Of a DNA stretch of 39,136 nucleotides, positions 3,594-21,271 are shown one piece after another. The notes under the pieces were generated by a model that saw nothing but the letters and a program-made list of their open reading frames with translations, searched no databases and was not told where the DNA came from. How positions within the stretch are numbered: the first letter of the stretch is position 1; every line of letters starts with the position of its first letter. The position numbers were made by a program, and so were the translations under genes. This DNA comes from Alphaproteobacteria bacterium (GTDB lineage: Bacteria; Pseudomonadota; Alphaproteobacteria; Thalassobaculales; Thalassobaculaceae). The stretch spans positions 1 through 39,136 of the forward strand of contig JABMNR010000080.1 in NCBI GenBank assembly GCA_013203465.1. The letters run 5' to 3'.

Positions 3594-4046
3594 TCAACCG
3601 GCCGTCGGACGCGGGGTCGGTCGCCAATCGGGCGGCGCCATCTCGAACCCGGCGAACTCGAAGGCGGGCGCCACCGTGCAGCCGCACAGCGTCCACGCGC
3701 CCAGCGACGCCGCTGTCTGCCACCAGCCGGGGCGTACCACCACGTGCGGTGTTTGACCGGTCAACACATCGCCCCCCAACGTATGGGCCTCGGCGTCGTG
3801 GCCGCCCGGTGACAGGGTGAGGGTGAGCGGCGCGCCGGCGTAATGGTGCCAGATCTCGGTCGCGTCGGTCACCCGGTGCCAGGCCGACACCTCGCCTGCC
3901 GCGAGCAGATAGAAGATCTGGGTAACCGCCCCCCGTTCGCCGCCATCCGGGGCATCGCGATAGGTTTCGCGATACCAGCCACCCTCCGGATGGGGTTCCA
4001 ACCGGAGGGTGTCGATCAGGCGGCGGGTTTCGACCGAGACGCTCAT
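3594..4046 (-). CDS. Cupin-fold DUF985 protein
   Basis: A 150-residue single-domain cupin of the DUF985/YML079w-like family. Visible signatures are HPEGGWYRETYRD near the N-terminus, AWHRVTDATEIWHHYAG, then VVRPGWWQTA and FEFAGFEMAPPDW at the end. Members bind small ligands, but the reaction is not established. The ATG at 4046 overlaps the upstream GST stop (ATGA), so I prefer it over longer upstream starts. It is the last gene of a gloB-GST-cupin run and converges on the glycosyltransferase with 10 bases between stops. I recall DUF985 cupins beside gloB in other alphaproteobacteria, so a link to aldehyde or glutathione chemistry is a reasonable inference. Confidence 0.85.
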   Translation of the reverse strand: MSVSVETRRLIDTLRLEPHPEGGWYRETYRDAPDGGERGAVTQIFYLLAAGEVSAWHRVTDATEIWHHYAGAPLTLTLSPGGHDAEAHTLGGDVLTGQTPHVVVRPGWWQTAASLGAWTLCGCTVAPAFEFAGFEMAPPDWRPTPRPTAG

Positions 4047-4657
4047 GCCGCCTTTGGCGCGGTGGCCTGCATCGACGGCCGGGCCGAGAACCGGGCGTAC
4101 CACGCGGCAAGCGCCGGGCGGCCCGCCCGCCAATCCTTGTCCGCATAGCGGAAATCAAGGTAGCCGAGCGCGCAGCCCACGGTGATGGTGCCGATGTCCA
4201 CCCGGTCGCCCAGCGTGCCGGCCTTGCTTTCCAGATCATCGAGCGCGCCGTCGACCTTGGCCATTTGCGCGTCGACCCAGGGTTGATAGCGCTTGTCCTC
4301 GGGCCGGATGCGGCCCTCGTAGATCCCGAGGATGGCGGCGTCCATCAGCCCGTCACCCAACGCCTGCAGACGCAACGCCTCCCACCGGGCGGGACCAACG
4401 GCGGGGAACATTTTGGCGCCGCTGTGTTGGCTGTCGAGATACTCGCAGATCACCGGCGAGTCGAACAACGTCATGCCGTCATTGGTCGCCAGCGCCGGAA
4501 TCTTCTTCACCGGGTTAACCGCGGCGACGCCCGGATCGACCTGCACCGGCGATGTCGCGACGGTTTCGAGATCGATCTGGTCAACGATGCCGGTCTCGTG
4601 AGCCTGAGCCAGGACTTTTCGCACGAAGGGCGAGGCGGCGGCGTAATAGAGCTTCAT
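4043..4657 (-). CDS. Glutathione S-transferase family protein
   Basis: A cytosolic GST-fold protein of 204 residues. The thioredoxin-like N-terminal domain starts MKLYYAAASPFVRKV, with the SPFVRKV helix start carrying the likely catalytic Ser. The cis-Pro motif KIPAL and the glutathione-binding FDSPVICEYLD follow. The all-helical C-terminal domain begins near residue 85. A GGAG lies about 9 bases before the ATG. The gene sits 35 bases after gloB and overlaps the cupin by 4 bases. The substrate is unknown. Together with GloB it suggests glutathione-dependent detoxification. Confidence 0.88.
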   Translation of the reverse strand: MKLYYAAASPFVRKVLAQAHETGIVDQIDLETVATSPVQVDPGVAAVNPVKKIPALATNDGMTLFDSPVICEYLDSQHSGAKMFPAVGPARWEALRLQALGDGLMDAAILGIYEGRIRPEDKRYQPWVDAQMAKVDGALDDLESKAGTLGDRVDIGTITVGCALGYLDFRYADKDWRAGRPALAAWYARFSARPSMQATAPKAA

Positions 4658-15536: not shown

Positions 15537-16259
15537 TCAATACATATGCTGGCCGCCGTTGATGCTGAGGGTCGAGCCGGTGACGAAGCCGGCGTCGTCG
15601 GCAACCAGGAACACCACGCCGCGGGCGATCTCGCTGGCGTGGCCGAGACGGCCGACCGGGATGCGGGCCTTGATCTTCTCCAGCACGTCGTCCGGCACGG
15701 CGGCCACCATGTCGGTGTCGATGTAGCCGGGGGCGATGGCGTTCACCGTGATGCCGGCGCGGGCACCCTCTTGGGCCAGGGCCTTGGTGAAGCCGTGGAT
15801 GCCGGACTTGGCGGCGGCGTAGTTGACCTGGCCGTACTGACCGGCCTGGCCGTTGATCGAGCCGATGTTGACCACCCGGCCGAATTTGCGCGTCCGCATG
15901 CCCTCGATGGTCGCCCGGCACATGTTGAAGCAGGAGCCGAGATTGGTGTCGATCACCGCCTGCCAGCTCTCGTGGCTCATCTTGTGGATGGTGCCGTCAC
16001 GGGTGATGCCGGCGTTGTTCACCAGAATATCGATCGGCCCGACATCGGCCTCGACCTTGGCCACGCCGGCCTGACAGGCGTCGAAATCGGCGACGTCCCA
16101 TTTGTAAGCCGGAATGCCGGTGCGCCCGGTGAATTCCTTGGCCCGCGCGTCGTTGCCGGCGTAGGTCGCCGCCACATTACAACCCGCCTCCTTCAGCGCG
16201 ATCGAGATCGCCTCGCCGATGCCTCTCGTGCCGCCGGTCACCAGTGCCACGCGTGCCAT
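15537..16259 (-). CDS. phaB: Acetoacetyl-CoA reductase (NADPH)
   Basis: Reduces acetoacetyl-CoA to (R)-3-hydroxybutyryl-CoA, the monomer for PHB synthesis. It is a short-chain dehydrogenase of 240 residues, the normal PhaB length. Visible parts are the cofactor motif VTGGTRGIGEAIS, NNAGITRD, the catalytic Ser in NIGSINGQAGQYGQ, and Y-x3-K in NYAAAKSG. The family end is GSTLSINGGQHMY. The ATG at 16259 follows AGGGAGGA. It lies downstream of phaA on the same strand with a 94-base gap that holds a hairpin and an A/T-rich tandem repeat. Confidence 0.95.
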   Translation of the reverse strand: MARVALVTGGTRGIGEAISIALKEAGCNVAATYAGNDARAKEFTGRTGIPAYKWDVADFDACQAGVAKVEADVGPIDILVNNAGITRDGTIHKMSHESWQAVIDTNLGSCFNMCRATIEGMRTRKFGRVVNIGSINGQAGQYGQVNYAAAKSGIHGFTKALAQEGARAGITVNAIAPGYIDTDMVAAVPDDVLEKIKARIPVGRLGHASEIARGVVFLVADDAGFVTGSTLSINGGQHMY

Positions 16260-16353: not shown

Positions 16354-17532
16354 TCAGTCGCGCTCGACGCACAGGGCGACCCCCATGCCGCCGCCGATGC
16401 ACAGGGTCGCCAACCCCTTCTTGGCGTCGCGCTTCTGCATCTCGTGCAGCAGAGTGACCAGCACCCGGGCGCCGGACGCGCCGATCGGATGGCCGAGCGC
16501 TATGGCGCCGCCGTTGACGTTGACCTTGCTGGTGTCCCAGCCGAGACCCTTGTTGACGGCGCAGGCCTGGGCGGCGAACGCCTCGTTGGCTTCGACCAGA
16601 TCGAGATCGTCGGCCGACCAGCCGGCCTTTTTTAGCGCCAGCTTGCTGGCCGGGATCGGGCCGGTGCCCATGATCGCCGGATCGACCCCGGCGGTCGCCC
16701 AGGACACGATGCGGGCCAGCGGGGTAACCCCGCGCTTGGCCGCGTTCTCCGCCGACATCAGCACCGCCACCGCCGCGCCGTCGTTGATGCCCGAGGCGTT
16801 ACCGGCGGTCACCGTGCCGCCGTCGCGCAGGAAGGCCGGCCGCAGCTTGGCCAGGCTCTCGGCGGTAGTGTCGGGCTTCGGGTACTCGTCGGTGTCGACC
16901 ACGGTCTCGCCCCGGCGGGTCTTGATGGTGACCGGCGCGATCTCGTCGGTGAACCGGCCCGACGCCATGGCGGCACCCGCCTTCTGCTGGCTGCCGAGCG
17001 CGAACGCGTCCTGGTCCTCGCGGGTGATCTGATATTTCTCGGCCACGTTCTCGGCGGTGTTGCCCATGTGATAGCCGTTGAAGGCGTCCCACAGGCCGTC
17101 GCGGATCATGGTGTCGATCATCTGGAAGTCGCCCATGCGCTGGCCGGTGCGTAGGTGCTGGGCGTGCGGCGCCAGGCTCATGCTCTCCTGGCCGCCGCAG
17201 ACCATGACCTCGGCATCGCCGAGCTTGATCGCCTGATAGCCGAGTGCCACCGCCCGCAGGCCGGAGCCGCACAGCTGGTTGATGCCGTAGGCCGTGCGCT
17301 CGACCGGTATGCCGGCGCCGATCGCCGCTTGACGCGCCGGGTTCTGGCCGGCAGCGGCGGTGAGGATCTGACCCAACACCGCCTCATCCACTTCGCCGGG
17401 CTCGGTCTTGGCGCGCTCCAGCGCCGCGCGGATCGCCACCTCGCCGAGATAGCTGGCGGCCACGGTGCTCAAGCTGCCGTTAAAGGCGCCGACGGGGGTA
17501 CGGGCCGCGCCCGCGATCACCACTTCGGTCAT
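16354..17532 (-). CDS. phaA: Acetyl-CoA acetyltransferase (beta-ketothiolase)
   Basis: Condenses two acetyl-CoA to acetoacetyl-CoA for PHB synthesis. The 392-residue length is canonical. The acyl-accepting Cys is in [22 protein letters not shown] follows, and the catalytic His and second Cys are in [12 protein letters not shown] and [13 protein letters not shown]. The ATG at 17532 follows CTGGAGAG. The promoter region just upstream contains TATTAT and TGC-rich dyads suited to PhaR control. It is the first gene of phaA-phaB. Confidence 0.95.
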
Positions 17533-17709: not shown

Positions 17710-18843
17710 TTAGTAGGTGTAGTCGTCGTCGCTCAGCAGCGGGTACTGGCTCCACACATGCGGCGGACCGACCGGCTCGGCCGGATGCAGGTGGTCGGGT
17801 TCAAGTTGGTCGAAGCTATTGACGCCGAGCAAGCCGAGGTCGATGCGGACTTCTTCCTCGAGAAGCTCCAGCACTCGGGCCACGCCTGCGGCACCCCCGG
17901 CGGCGAGGCCACAGCACAGCAGCCGGCCGATCCCGACCACATCCGCACCCAGCGCCCGCGCCTTGACGATGTCGCTGCCGCGGGTGACACCGCCGTCGAC
18001 GGCGACCGCCGCCCGTCCGGCCACCGCGTCCACCACCTCGGGCAGCACGTCGAGCGCACCCCGGCCGTGATCCAATTGGCGGCCGCCGTGGTTGGAGACG
18101 AAGATCATCTCGGCGCCGTGCTCGACCGCAAGGGCGGCGTCCTCGGCGGTGGCGATGCCCTTGAGGATCAGCGGGATGTCATAGCTCTTCTTGAACCGTT
18201 CGATATCGGCCCAGCTCAAGGCCTTCTGCCAGTCCATGCCCGGCACCTGACGCCACGGCTTGATAAAGCGGTTGGCGATGTCGCGTTCGCGCCGGCTGTA
18301 CCAGGCGCTGTCGACGGTCAGCGCGAAGGCGTCGAAGCCGGTGTCGATCGCCCGGCCGATCACGGCGTCCAACCAGGCGTCGTCGCCGCGTTTGTACAGG
18401 CAGAACACCTTGGTGCCGCCGATGGCGCCGACATCTTCCAGCGGCACGGTGCCGACCGAGGACAGGAACAGCGGCACGCCATAGGCGGCGGCGGCGCGCA
18501 TCGCCTGAAGCGGGCCGTCCTCGGCGAAACTTTCCAAGCTGCCGATCGGGCACAACACCAGCGGCAGCCGGCACGCGTGGCCGAGGAACGACCCGCTGGT
18601 GTCGACCTGCCGCATGTCGCGCAGCACCCGTGGCCGGAAGGCGATCGTGTCGAACGCCAACCGATTGCGCTTGGTTGTGGTCTCGCTCTCGGTGCCGCCC
18701 CGCATGTAGTCCCAGATGTTGCGATGCAGGGTGGCGCGCGCGTGCTTCACCACCTCGTGCAGCGTCTGAAAAGCATCGCGGGCCGCCGCCATGTCGGCGT
18801 CCGCAATGCCGGCGTCGTGCGATGGTGGGGTGGCGTCGTTCAT
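17710..18843 (-). CDS. FMN-dependent alpha-hydroxy-acid dehydrogenase/oxidase
   Basis: A 377-residue TIM-barrel flavoenzyme of the L-lactate dehydrogenase/glycolate oxidase family. Conserved parts are the N-terminal WDYMRGGTESETT, FRPRVLRDMRQVDTS, LCPIGSLESF, the active-site SNHGGRQLDHGRGAL with catalytic His and Arg, and VDGGVTRGSDIVKARALGAD for phosphate binding. The ATG at 18843 overlaps the PhaC-like stop (ATGA) and has AGGAGA upstream, so it is preferred over the ATG at 18861. It normally oxidises a 2-hydroxy acid to a 2-keto acid. Its tight coupling to the PHA synthase-like gene is unusual. The substrate is unknown. Confidence 0.88.
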   Translation of the reverse strand: MNDATPPSHDAGIADADMAAARDAFQTLHEVVKHARATLHRNIWDYMRGGTESETTTKRNRLAFDTIAFRPRVLRDMRQVDTSGSFLGHACRLPLVLCPIGSLESFAEDGPLQAMRAAAAYGVPLFLSSVGTVPLEDVGAIGGTKVFCLYKRGDDAWLDAVIGRAIDTGFDAFALTVDSAWYSRRERDIANRFIKPWRQVPGMDWQKALSWADIERFKKSYDIPLILKGIATAEDAALAVEHGAEMIFVSNHGGRQLDHGRGALDVLPEVVDAVAGRAAVAVDGGVTRGSDIVKARALGADVVGIGRLLCCGLAAGGAAGVARVLELLEEEVRIDLGLLGVNSFDQLEPDHLHPAEPVGPPHVWSQYPLLSDDDYTY

Positions 18844-20159
18844 GCGGGTTTCTCCTGCCAAGTCTCGTCCAACCAGTCGGCGAGCGTCGTCCAGGCGCGA
18901 CGCTTGGCGCCGGCGCTGACCGCCATGCCGATATGTCCCAGTGCCACGTCGGCCCGAACGGCGTTCGGCATCCGGTCGGCCAGCGCCCGGGCCGAGGCCG
19001 GCGGCACGATGCGGTCGCGGGCCGGGATCATCGCCAGGGTGGGGGTTGTCACCCGCTCCGGGGTCACCGGCCGGCCGGCGACGCGCCAGGTCCCGGCGGC
19101 GGGGGTGTTGCGGCCATACCAGTCGAACAGCGTCTCACGCGCCACCGGGGCGGCCAGGGGAACCCCGTCGTTCAACCAATCCTCCAGGGCCACGAACTCA
19201 AGAGCGTTATCGCTGTCCGGCGCCAGCTCGGCGAAGCTGAGAAATTTCCGGATCACCAGCATCGGATCGAGCGAGAAGAACAGGGTCTGGATCATGTCGG
19301 TCGGCAGCCAGCCGGTCGCGTCGATCGTGGCGGCGAGCCACGGCTCGACCATCGGCAAGGCAGCGGCGACCGGCGGCGCGTCGGCGGCGAAATCCCATGG
19401 AGTGGCCAACAGCGCCAAGGCGCCGGTATCGCGTGGCCGGCGCTCGGCCAGCGCCAACGCCAGCAAACCGCCCATGCAATAGCCCATCACCGCCGGTGCC
19501 CGACCGGTGATGGCCAGAACCGCTTCCAGCGCCGATTCCAACCGCCCGGCGATGTAGTCGGTCAGGGTGAACCGCCGCTCCGCCTCGCCGGGGAAGCCCC
19601 ACTCGACCAGGAAGGGACGGAACCCGCGTTCGACCAGCCAGCGCATCAGTGAGCGGTCGTTCGACAGATCCAGCACATAACCGCGGTTGACCAGCGACGG
19701 CACCACCAGGATCGGCCGGCCCTCGGTCCCGCCGTCGCGCAGCGGGCCGTAATCCAACAACCGGGTCGAGCCTTCTTTCCAGCAGACCGGCGGTTCATCC
19801 ACGACGCGGCGATAGGGATGGGCACGATAGGCCTCAATGCCGCCGAGAAAAGCGCCAAACCGGCGGCGTACCTCCTGGTCCAGCGCGGTATCGAACGCCG
19901 CTGGACTAGGGTTGTCGCTTGGTTTGCCGACGTTTGGTTGCTTCAGCGCCGCTTCCAGCGCGTCGAGTTGGTTTTTCAGGCTGGCCGCCGCCTCGCTTGA
20001 GCCGGGCTTCCAGGTCAGCGATCCGTTCCTCCAGGCGGCGGAGCTCGCGTAGGACGAGAGCCAGGTCGTCGCCGCCGTCGTCAGATACAACGGCAACGGG
20101 CGCGGCCCCGGCCGTTGGCCGTCCGTGTGTTCGCCTCGCGTCTGATCCCCGTCGCTCAT
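18840..20159 (-). CDS. PHA synthase (PhaC)-like alpha/beta hydrolase
   Basis: Predicted to polymerise (R)-3-hydroxyacyl-CoA, or to act in a related way. The core from about 19850 down has PILVVPSLVNRGYVLDL, RSLMRWLVERGFRPFLVEWG, the PHA-synthase lipase-like box GYCMGG with the nucleophilic Cys (codon 19478-19476), Asp in PARDRIVPP, and His in LGHIGMAV. The core is too short for class I PhaC and closer to class III or related alphaproteobacterial proteins. The start is a problem: no ATG, GTG or TTG lies in this frame between the PhaE-like stop (19906) and a GTG well inside the conserved N-terminal region. The listed ATG at 20159 therefore overlaps the PhaE-like gene by about 250 bases. A frameshift or fusion is discussed in the findings. 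Confidence 0.75.
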   Translation of the reverse strand: MSDGDQTRGEHTDGQRPGPRPLPLYLTTAATTWLSSYASSAAWRNGSLTWKPGSSEAAASLKNQLDALEAALKQPNVGKPSDNPSPAAFDTALDQEVRRRFGAFLGGIEAYRAHPYRRVVDEPPVCWKEGSTRLLDYGPLRDGGTEGRPILVVPSLVNRGYVLDLSNDRSLMRWLVERGFRPFLVEWGFPGEAERRFTLTDYIAGRLESALEAVLAITGRAPAVMGYCMGGLLALALAERRPRDTGALALLATPWDFAADAPPVAAALPMVEPWLAATIDATGWLPTDMIQTLFFSLDPMLVIRKFLSFAELAPDSDNALEFVALEDWLNDGVPLAAPVARETLFDWYGRNTPAAGTWRVAGRPVTPERVTTPTLAMIPARDRIVPPASARALADRMPNAVRADVALGHIGMAVSAGAKRRAWTTLADWLDETWQEKPA

Positions 20160-20409
20160 AGGTGCCATCATAAGCCGTTCGAGGGTCGGGTGCGTAGCCC
20201 GGTTGCAGGCCGTCCGGTGCCGGGGGGTGCTGTCCCGGGGCACCGACGCCGGGCGCGAATCCTGGCGGACGCATCGTTCCGGCCCACAACGCCGTCCATC
20301 GGCGGACGGCGTCGCCGAGTTCGGGGTCCGTGGCCATGGCCTGCACCTGATCCTGCCAGAGATCCAGGAACCGGCGCGCGATGTCGTGCGGGTCGGGTGG
20401 GGTCGACAT
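19906..20409 (-). CDS. PhaE-like small protein with C-terminal coiled coil
   Basis: A 167-residue protein. The N-terminal helix PHDIARRFLDLWQDQVQAMA, followed by a proline/glycine-rich linker (residues ~47-110), a coiled coil LALVLRELRRLEERIADLEA (116-135) and a basic tail (TKRRQTKRQP). This layout resembles PhaE, the non-catalytic subunit of class III PHA synthase, and its position directly before the PhaC-like gene supports that. It is shorter than classical PhaE and the match is by pattern only. The start ATG at 20409 is preferred to a start at 20451 on composition. It diverges from phaR. Confidence 0.6.
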   Translation of the reverse strand: MSTPPDPHDIARRFLDLWQDQVQAMATDPELGDAVRRWTALWAGTMRPPGFAPGVGAPGQHPPAPDGLQPGYAPDPRTAYDGTYERRGSDARRTHGRPTAGAAPVAVVSDDGGDDLALVLRELRRLEERIADLEARLKRGGGQPEKPTRRAGSGAEATKRRQTKRQP

Positions 20410-20533
20410 GATGGCCGAGTATGTCACGCGAACCGGGGTCGGCCAAGCCACCGAACACCCCGGTGAATGGCTATTCTATCGCGTCGCGGCATCGCCGAGA
20501 GCCGCTGAAATCCACGGCTTATCGATGATTGCC

Positions 20534-20546
20534 GTTGCAAAGCAAC
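20534..20546. promoter_or_regulatory. Dyad GTTGC-AAA-GCAAC, candidate PhaR operator
   Basis: A perfect 5-bp inverted repeat with a 3-base centre lies in the intergenic region between the PhaE-like gene and phaR. The TTGC-N3-GCAA form has the same spacing as the CTGC-N3-GCAG site described for Paracoccus PhaR. It sits 63-75 bases upstream of the phaR ATG, so autoregulation and control of the divergent synthase operon are plausible. Confidence 0.45.
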
Positions 20547-20572
20547 AAACGAACGCGCATCGTTATCCACAA

Positions 20573-20587
20573 TTGGTGCAGCACCAA
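20573..20587. promoter_or_regulatory. 15-bp perfect palindrome TTGGTGC-A-GCACCAA
   Basis: A perfect inverted repeat with a single central base, 22 bases before the phaR start codon. The core TGC-A-GCA resembles the other TGC dyads near the PHA genes. It could be a second operator half-site cluster or a regulator site of its own. Confidence 0.45.
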
Positions 20588-20608
20588 CGCGGAGCGATCG
20601 ACCTCGTT

Positions 20609-21271
20609 ATGGCGGAATCATCGAAAGAGGCCCGTGCCAAAAACGGACGGCCGGTGGGTGGAAAGATGGGCAAAACCGGCGCCGACGGCGTGGTCACCAT
20701 TAAAAAATACGCGAACCGTCGGCTCTACAACACGGCGACCAGCAGCTACGTCACCTTGGACCATCTCTGTCTGATGGTGAAGGACGGTGTGGATTTCGTG
20801 GTGTACGACGCCAAGACCGGCGACGACATCACCCGGGCGGTGCTGACGCAAATCATCGTCGAGGAGGAGGCCAAGGGGCAGAACTTGCTGCCGATCAGCT
20901 TCCTGCGACAGCTTATCGGCTTCTATGGCGACAACCTGCAGCTGGTGTTGCCGAAGTATCTTGAAAGCGCGATGGGCGCCTTCGCCGAGAACCAGGGGCG
21001 GATGCGCGGCTACATGCAGGGCACGTTCGGCAGCATGTATCCATTTAGCTCGTTCGAGGACATGACGAAGAACCATCTCGCCATGTTCGAGCAGGCCATG
21101 AAGCTGTTCCAGCCGGGCGAGGCCGGTGTCGGCACGCCCGATCACGGGACGGCGGCGACGCCGAAAGCCGAGAGCGATCCGACCACGGCAGCGGTGCGGA
21201 CCCTGCAGGAGCAGGTCGAGCGGCTTCAGGATCAACTCGACAAACTCGGCGATAAATCGGGCGGTACGTGA
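20609..21271 (+). CDS. phaR: Polyhydroxyalkanoate synthesis repressor PhaR
   Basis: A DNA- and PHB-binding repressor, 220 residues from this start. The DNA-binding domain is VTIKKYANRRLYNTATSSY, then VTLDHLCLMVKDGVDFVVYD. The PHB-binding repeats follow (LLPISFLRQLIGFYGDNLQ, LPKYLESAM, MTKNHLAMFEQAM), and the C-terminal coiled coil is TLQEQVERLQDQLDKL. When PHB accumulates, PhaR proteins leave DNA and bind granules, which derepresses target genes. The ATG at 20609 has no strong ribosome site. The ATG at 20666 (MGKTGADG) with GGTGG upstream is an alternative that keeps the whole conserved domain. Two dyads upstream suggest autoregulation. Confidence 0.92.
   Translation: MAESSKEARAKNGRPVGGKMGKTGADGVVTIKKYANRRLYNTATSSYVTLDHLCLMVKDGVDFVVYDAKTGDDITRAVLTQIIVEEEAKGQNLLPISFLRQLIGFYGDNLQLVLPKYLESAMGAFAENQGRMRGYMQGTFGSMYPFSSFEDMTKNHLAMFEQAMKLFQPGEAGVGTPDHGTAATPKAESDPTTAAVRTLQEQVERLQDQLDKLGDKSGGT

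Follow-up and report, generated by a model that had tools for sequence, protein, structure and literature searches.

Class III PHA synthases and overlapping bacterial genes

In class III PHA synthase loci, a phaE-type gene lies directly upstream of phaC. Canonical PhaE ends in a coil followed by a basic tail, and class III PhaC has an alpha/beta-hydrolase fold and a conserved Cys box; the locus described here is alike in each respect. In haloarchaea, phaE is immediately upstream of phaC and is indispensable, according to an excerpt of the source (PMC13038957). The small gene analysed here also lies directly upstream of phaC, and by eye its product carries a coil and a basic tail. We call it PhaE-like because its position and architecture match the canonical class III phaE layout.

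Real out-of-frame overlaps between bacterial genes include rpmH-rnpA of Thermus and comS inside srfA of Bacillus. Overlapping genes are known as a kind, and what is new here is an enzyme and its probable partner coded by one shared stretch. Within the excerpted text of a survey of 338 genomes, no co-directional overlap longer than 60 bp is accepted as real, and holD-rimI of the Enterobacteria is the longest real one below that length (Palleja et al., 2008; PMC2478687). Background on overlap phase is given in an excerpt of PMC2542354. No description of an overlap between a PhaE-like gene and phaC was found in the literature searched, which consisted of open-licence PMC papers. The best reading of the locus is that a conserved, undescribed PhaE-like small protein is dual-coded with its synthase.

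Two earlier reports touch on possible carriers. Judging by the operon layout in the excerpted report, phaC1 of Rhodospirillum rubrum may belong to the overlap group (PMC4026134). An Azospirillum phbC mutant is described in an excerpt of PMC10383645, where phbC is placed on the strand opposite phbAB; it is not used here because an opposite-strand phbC may be another copy of phaC.

Organization of the locus

The window is a stretch of 39,136 nucleotides of alphaproteobacterial DNA, and its relevant features are collected in Table 1. We hold with high confidence that the PhaE-like gene and phaC are two intact, separate genes of one PHB operon that share an out-of-frame overlap of 254 nt, with PhaC initiating internally. 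In the operon, the PhaE-like gene and phaC are followed by genes for a lactate-dehydrogenase-like enzyme, PhaA and, probably, PhaB; phaR lies beside them in divergent orientation. The PhaR domain match begins only at about 20696, so the true phaR start is probably further in than the mechanical ORF suggests. A gene for an FMN lactate-dehydrogenase-like enzyme is situated between phaC and phaA, and its ATG overlaps the PhaC stop codon (18840-18842).

Table 1. Features of the PhaE-like/phaC locus, in window coordinates
Feature	Position	Strand	Basis
PhaE-like small protein gene (167 aa)	19906..20409	-	ORF, ATG 20409 to stop 19906; homologues in the same relative frame
PhaC, PHA synthase catalytic subunit, class III-like (439 aa from ATG 20159)	18840..20159	-	Family matches, conserved residues, fold matches
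Out-of-frame overlap, dual-coding stretch, 254 nt	19906..20159	-	Both frames constrained; controls
GPRPLPLYL, PhaC N-terminal motif within the PhaE-like gene	20082..20108	-	Columns mostly invariant or nearly so in two alignments
Predicted long helix with coiled-coil heptads, PhaE-like residues 113-140, over the PhaC N-terminus	19990..20073	-	AlphaFold2; profile versus synonymous null
N-terminal helical pair, PhaE-like residues 7-45, IARRFLDLWQDQ motif, upstream of the overlap	20275..20391	-	AlphaFold2; Trp18 the same in all 58 sequences
FMN-dependent lactate-dehydrogenase-like gene, overlapping the PhaC stop at ATGA	17710..18843	-	NCBIfam matches below cut-off
phaA-type acetyl-CoA C-acetyltransferase	16354..17532	-	TIGR01930 above cut-off
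Probable phaB, short-chain dehydrogenase, TGGTRGIG	15537..16259	-	Named by sequence and position
Divergent phaR (mechanical ORF)	20381..21271	+	TIGR01848 above cut-off; PF07879 and PF05233

The window PhaC belongs to the PHA synthase superfamily by its Cys box, Asp and His residues and alpha/beta-hydrolase fold. Its best-scoring NCBIfam model is that of class III PhaC (TIGR01836; E 1.5e-52), at 178.7 bits against a curated cut-off of 365.3 bits, and Pfam PhaC_N matches above cut-off. Cys228, in a lipase-like GYCMGG box, Asp382 and His409 are conserved in PhaC alignments; these we take to be the catalytic residues. Solved PHA synthases are the top fold matches of the PhaC model (TM-score 0.50-0.60 by query length). 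Two additional, distant PhaC homologues are encoded elsewhere in the same genome, on contigs C75 and C133 (E 2.6e-16 and 1.2e-17), so the synthase of the overlap locus is probably not the only one in this genome.

AlphaFold2 predicts helices in the overlap-encoded segments of both proteins. The mean pLDDT of the PhaC model is 90.8. Two of its helices, residues 22-44 and 55-71, fall within the 84 dual-coded residues; ten-residue mean pLDDT is 75-91 across these helices and 46 at residues 1-10, and pLDDT drops to about 57-65 over residues 71-90. The alignments related to structure comprise the window and, thinned by eye, 57 of the 73 named loci with references (80 named loci in total); one locus, L009, was omitted from one protein alignment.

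Distribution of the overlap

The overlap is widespread in the class of the window. PhaC is matched in 22 of 36 genomes of the window's family, one of which (G025) matches by a distant PhaC only, and all 21 loci from the remaining 21 genomes carry the overlap. An evenly drawn sample of 385 genomes of the class yielded 160 with a PhaC match at E<=1e-60, 150 of which were read. Of 251 loci searched in six frames with a PhaE-like profile, 233 gave the match in the same relative frame and four in another, two of these four being antisense; the remaining 14 gave no match. The profile was seeded with that frame from the 21 family loci, and the search was informed by it and not limited to it; duplicates were kept among the 251 loci, and the window is present twice (L001 and L112).

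Measured from the PhaC motif, the PhaE-like frame extends at least 100 nt further in all 21 family loci, in 79 of the 80 named loci and in 127 of the 150 loci of the class sample; of the 70 class-sample families that bear this PhaC, 60 have such an overlap. A cruder anchor, which falls too deep where the PhaC N-terminus is unaligned, gave 123 of 150 loci and 57 of 70 families; re-anchoring on the motif raised the locus count from 123 to 127, the old anchor being kept for 11 class loci without a detectable motif. GC content ranges from 41 to 73% across the 123 loci defined by the cruder anchor. From the chosen PhaC start to the PhaE-like stop, the overlap measures 146-329 nt, with a median of 215 (175 of 181 loci). 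The preliminary description left fused and separate genes as alternatives, and relatives carry two separate overlapping genes in those 127 class-sample loci. Relatives keep both frames open and conserved, with the register unchanged.

Named carriers include Thalassobaculum, Nisaea, Azospirillum, Magnetospirillum, Pelagibius, Nitrospirillum, Reyranella and Novispirillum. In Azospirillum plasmid records (five opened of seven matches; L171-L175), the small ORF is present and is absent from the gene table, which is known to be incomplete; the annotated PhaC starts at GTG, is overlapped for 230 nt by the small ORF and is named solely as an alpha/beta fold hydrolase. A phylum-wide search of 249 genomes returned 11 matches at E<=1e-70, none of them outside the class of the window.

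Selection on both reading frames

An open second frame is a poor guide to coding in this DNA. PhaC alone might code in the overlap, the open PhaE-like frame being a by-product of high-GC codon usage, and openness is in keeping with such an account: 68% of 1269 windows of 126 nt from the PhaC body are open in the +2 frame, the PhaE frame survives synonymous resampling of PhaC codons with a median probability of 0.54, and in the window it stays open in 27.7% of 300 draws. Because about half of the resampled draws retain an open frame, openness was dropped as evidence. What the frame encodes nevertheless makes a PhaC-only overlap very improbable. A coil profile, cross-validated between data halves, scores the window at 64.7 bits, compared with at most 45.5 in 20 resampled copies; the median is 54.2 bits in real loci and 14.0 in resampled ones. 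The 99th percentile of the resampled scores is 41.3 bits, and 156 of 181 loci score higher. The overlap is also kept in loci of 41-47% GC (L268, L289, L270).

Silent divergence of PhaC is reduced in the overlap and is not reduced in the controls, which also counts against PhaC-only coding. Over 87 disjoint pairs, 675 of 2247 four-fold silent sites are changed in the overlap (0.300) and 5480 of 13355 beyond it (0.410), and the overlap is the less divergent part in 66 pairs. The contrast is strongest in the 30 pairs of at least 80% identity (158/1002 versus 1719/5811; lower inside in 28). It is weak in the 34 pairs below 65% identity (310/643 versus 2081/3941; lower in 21; p 0.03), as expected near saturation. 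The PhaE-like frame is constrained in turn, with 387 of 2210 silent sites changed in the overlap (0.175) and 343 of 884 upstream (0.388), the overlap being lower in 52 of 57 comparable pairs. No 5' drop is seen in alphaproteobacterial phaC without the overlap (54/89 versus 241/386; 4 pairs) or in canonical class III phaC (133/298 versus 663/1431; 14 pairs). Fisher tests on these counts assume independent sites.

The silent-site set was reduced from 251 loci to 195, of which 181 are unique. Excluded were 14 loci without a PhaE-like match, four with a match in another frame, eight with an unaligned PhaC N-terminus, five with an overlap below 100 nt, 23 without the regex motif, one containing N and one that was short. 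A narrower motif regex, which excludes the window (185 usable loci, 173 unique, 84 pairs), gives the same direction.

Constraint on silent sites is by itself equally compatible with an RNA element and with a second protein, and a regulatory RNA element at the phaC start could in principle produce it. Two observations speak against this account, to which we give very little credence. PhaC-silent changes in the overlap cause mild amino-acid substitutions in the other frame (mean BLOSUM62 -0.07 observed, -0.36 expected; n=418), which likewise tells against PhaC as the sole coding frame; in the PhaC body the same measure shows a small effect (-0.84 observed, -0.91 expected; n=3725). None of the 418 changes in the overlap creates a stop, a result not counted as evidence because the loci were selected for an open frame. 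The part of the PhaE-like frame upstream of the overlap shows protein-level conservation: in close pairs, 82 of 877 residues are changed, compared with 104 of 431 silent sites. Together, these substitution patterns indicate that both frames are under purifying selection in the overlap, and from sequence we infer that both proteins are made from it.

Translation starts

The PhaC start very probably lies inside the PhaE-like gene, as indicated by the conservation among relatives of the PhaC N-terminus (GPRPLPLYL and the stretch that follows). The preliminary description had placed the nearest PhaC ATG about 250 bases inside the PhaE-like gene, in agreement with the overlap length measured here, and re-reading of the sequence bears out its coordinates and the lack of a PhaC start codon between the PhaE-like stop and a GTG deep in the gene. 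By eye, ATG, GTG and TTG are absent from the PhaC frame from 19906 down to 19800-19802, where a GTG falls within a conserved HPYRR-VV-DEPP stretch. Besides the nearest ATG at 20159, the frame offers ATG 20168, ATG 20171 and GTG 20243 farther upstream, so the exact PhaC start is not certain.

Under two-gene expression of the locus, ribosomes initiating at 20409 would make the small PhaE-like protein, while other ribosomes initiating at 20159 or at a nearby in-frame start would make PhaC, with no need for a frameshift. The second half of the PhaE-like gene would then double, in another frame, as code for about the first 84 PhaC residues. At the ATG nearest before the PhaC motif, median Shine-Dalgarno pairing is -4.9 kcal, and 38% of 160 sites reach -6 or better. 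The corresponding values are -2.4 kcal and 8% of 2378 for ATGs in the PhaC body, and -2.6 kcal and 13% of 905 for random same-frame codons upstream. Pairing above background at the PhaC ATG makes internal initiation likely across the locus set, as far as sequence can indicate. PhaE-like starts are not distinct (median -2.4 kcal versus -2.2 at random positions), and in the window pairing is weak at both starts (-1.8 and -1.7 kcal). A start codon is absent within the searched stretch in 6 of 181 loci.

A programmed +1 frameshift at or near 19995 would instead yield a PhaE-PhaC fusion, besides or in place of a separate PhaC. The PhaE frame is one base-skip from the PhaC frame, and the heptad of the preliminary description can be drawn through the junction. 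Such a fusion, given there as about 560 residues, skips the PhaC residues upstream of 19995, and leaves unexplained both their conservation (at 180 loci, identity to the window averages 0.46, with 0.38 just after the site and 0.54 in the body) and the constraint on the PhaC frame there. PhaC moreover has its own start, with pairing above background in the set as a whole, and in relatives that lack the PhaE-like overlap the N-terminal motif of PhaC, or a close variant, is still present. The fusion was rejected on account of the conserved PhaC N-terminus, and programmed frameshifting seems scarcely credible. A sequencing error or recent frameshift mutation, by which one fused gene for PhaE and PhaC, or two genes at normal spacing, had been misread, is conceivable on paper in a draft assembly of 238 contigs where the proposed join can be made, but is refuted to near certainty because relatives share the arrangement, in over 200 loci and many independent assemblies, cultured strains included. 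Among the four explanations in the preliminary description, the real long overlap is thus the one supported, with the same relative frame in over 200 loci, and sequencing error, recent frameshift and programmed frameshifting find no support.

The PhaE-like protein

The PhaE-like protein is predicted to consist of an N-terminal helical pair, a variable linker of low confidence, a long C-terminal coiled-coil helix and a basic tail. The N-terminal helices bear a conserved LARRYLDLWQDQ-type motif that includes the invariant Trp18. Overall confidence in the AlphaFold2 model is low (mean pLDDT 70.8, pTM 0.30).

Homology to canonical PhaE was sought through Pfam, NCBIfam and hhalign and was not established. 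The window protein matches no family at cut-off in Pfam or NCBIfam. The PhaE model PF09712 does not match it, finds nothing in the window's own genome and has no match above cut-off in 10 overlap-bearing genomes; the model does detect PhaE, in 31 of 120 genomes of the phylum. PF09712 is also absent among the best 25 of the 58 Pfam families matched by 58 PhaE-like members. Within those 25, the commonest weak match is DUF7310, a generic coiled-coil model, in 35 members (best E 3.4e-4). NCBIfam matches of members other than the window were taken from the best 25 of 30 families. By hhalign, the PhaE-like coil shows no significant similarity to canonical PhaE (probability 5.5%), and a second insignificant alignment pairs the N-termini.

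By analogy with PhaE in class III enzymes, the small protein is probably an accessory or granule-side partner of the synthase, a role that we propose with moderate confidence; the partnership itself is inferred. A more specific and rather unlikely extension is that the overlap-encoded PhaC N-terminal helices and the PhaE-like coil touch in the finished synthase across the class, the two halves of the interface being locked together by the overlap. Such an overlap may have arisen by overprinting, with PhaC becoming extended N-terminally into phaE at an early stage of alphaproteobacterial evolution.

Exceptions and origin of the overlap

In the class sample, 23 of 150 loci lack an overlap of at least 100 nt, and 14 of these have no PhaE-like profile match. 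Among the 14, three are cut by contig ends (L236, L255, L294), and two (L264, L266) were missed by the profile and show by eye a FLDLWE-type ORF, likely a short relative. A short PhaE-like protein ends before the PhaC motif in L258, L267 and L277, and no PhaE-like gene was seen in L220, L225, L263 or L274. In family f13 (L303-L306; 4 of the 11 phylum-search genomes), the GPRPLPL motif or a close variant is kept, the next N-terminal segment of PhaC is missing and no PhaE-like ORF was seen upstream, so that neither half of the overlap is present.

Two further cases involve damaged frames. In L105, a named locus from a MAG, a stop codon precedes a still recognisable coil in the PhaE-like frame (3693-4077). 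In L009 and L023 (G030, contig 6), two TGA codons split the PhaC match into separate pieces, and the PhaE-like frame is intact; PhaC there is either a broken gene or an assembly error.

By comparison with canonical loci, the N-terminal extension of PhaC may be the newcomer. Against this, alphaproteobacterial branches without a PhaE-like gene retain the PhaC motif or a close variant. On a quick FastTree tree with weak deep support, the overlap label changes 16 times (shuffled mean 34), or 13 times after re-anchoring.

Implications

When two bacterial genes on one strand overlap over a long stretch, the overlap is often put down to faulty annotation. With a median of 215 nt, a presence in 60 of 70 families and constraint on both frames, the PhaE-like/phaC overlap offers a clean natural system for the evolution of two proteins on one sequence. 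A probable synthase partner may also have been missed in annotated genomes. The small gene is unlisted in the Azospirillum records. Constructs of phaC made from such bacteria may therefore lack it, and knock-outs extending into the first 84 codons of phaC would damage the small protein as well.

Comparison with known systems

Thermus rpmH-rnpA and Bacillus comS-srfA resemble the present locus in that two proteins come from one stretch on one strand; they differ in involving other genes, with one gene inside the other. The holD-rimI overlap is likewise co-directional, out-of-frame and conserved, but in the excerpted survey it reaches at most 56 bp (PMC2478687), whereas the PhaE-like/PhaC overlap spans 146-329 nt (median 215) class-wide. 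In canonical class III loci, by contrast, phaE and phaC abut within a few nucleotides in 28 of 30 loci that show both, judged by eye with PhaC taken from its usual Met; in two canonical loci (L145, L148) the open PhaC frame extends farther back than that Met. The window's small protein is about half the length of canonical PhaE and goes unrecognised by PF09712. Canonical class III PhaC has a short N-terminus, whereas that of PhaC at the overlap locus is extended and dual-coded.
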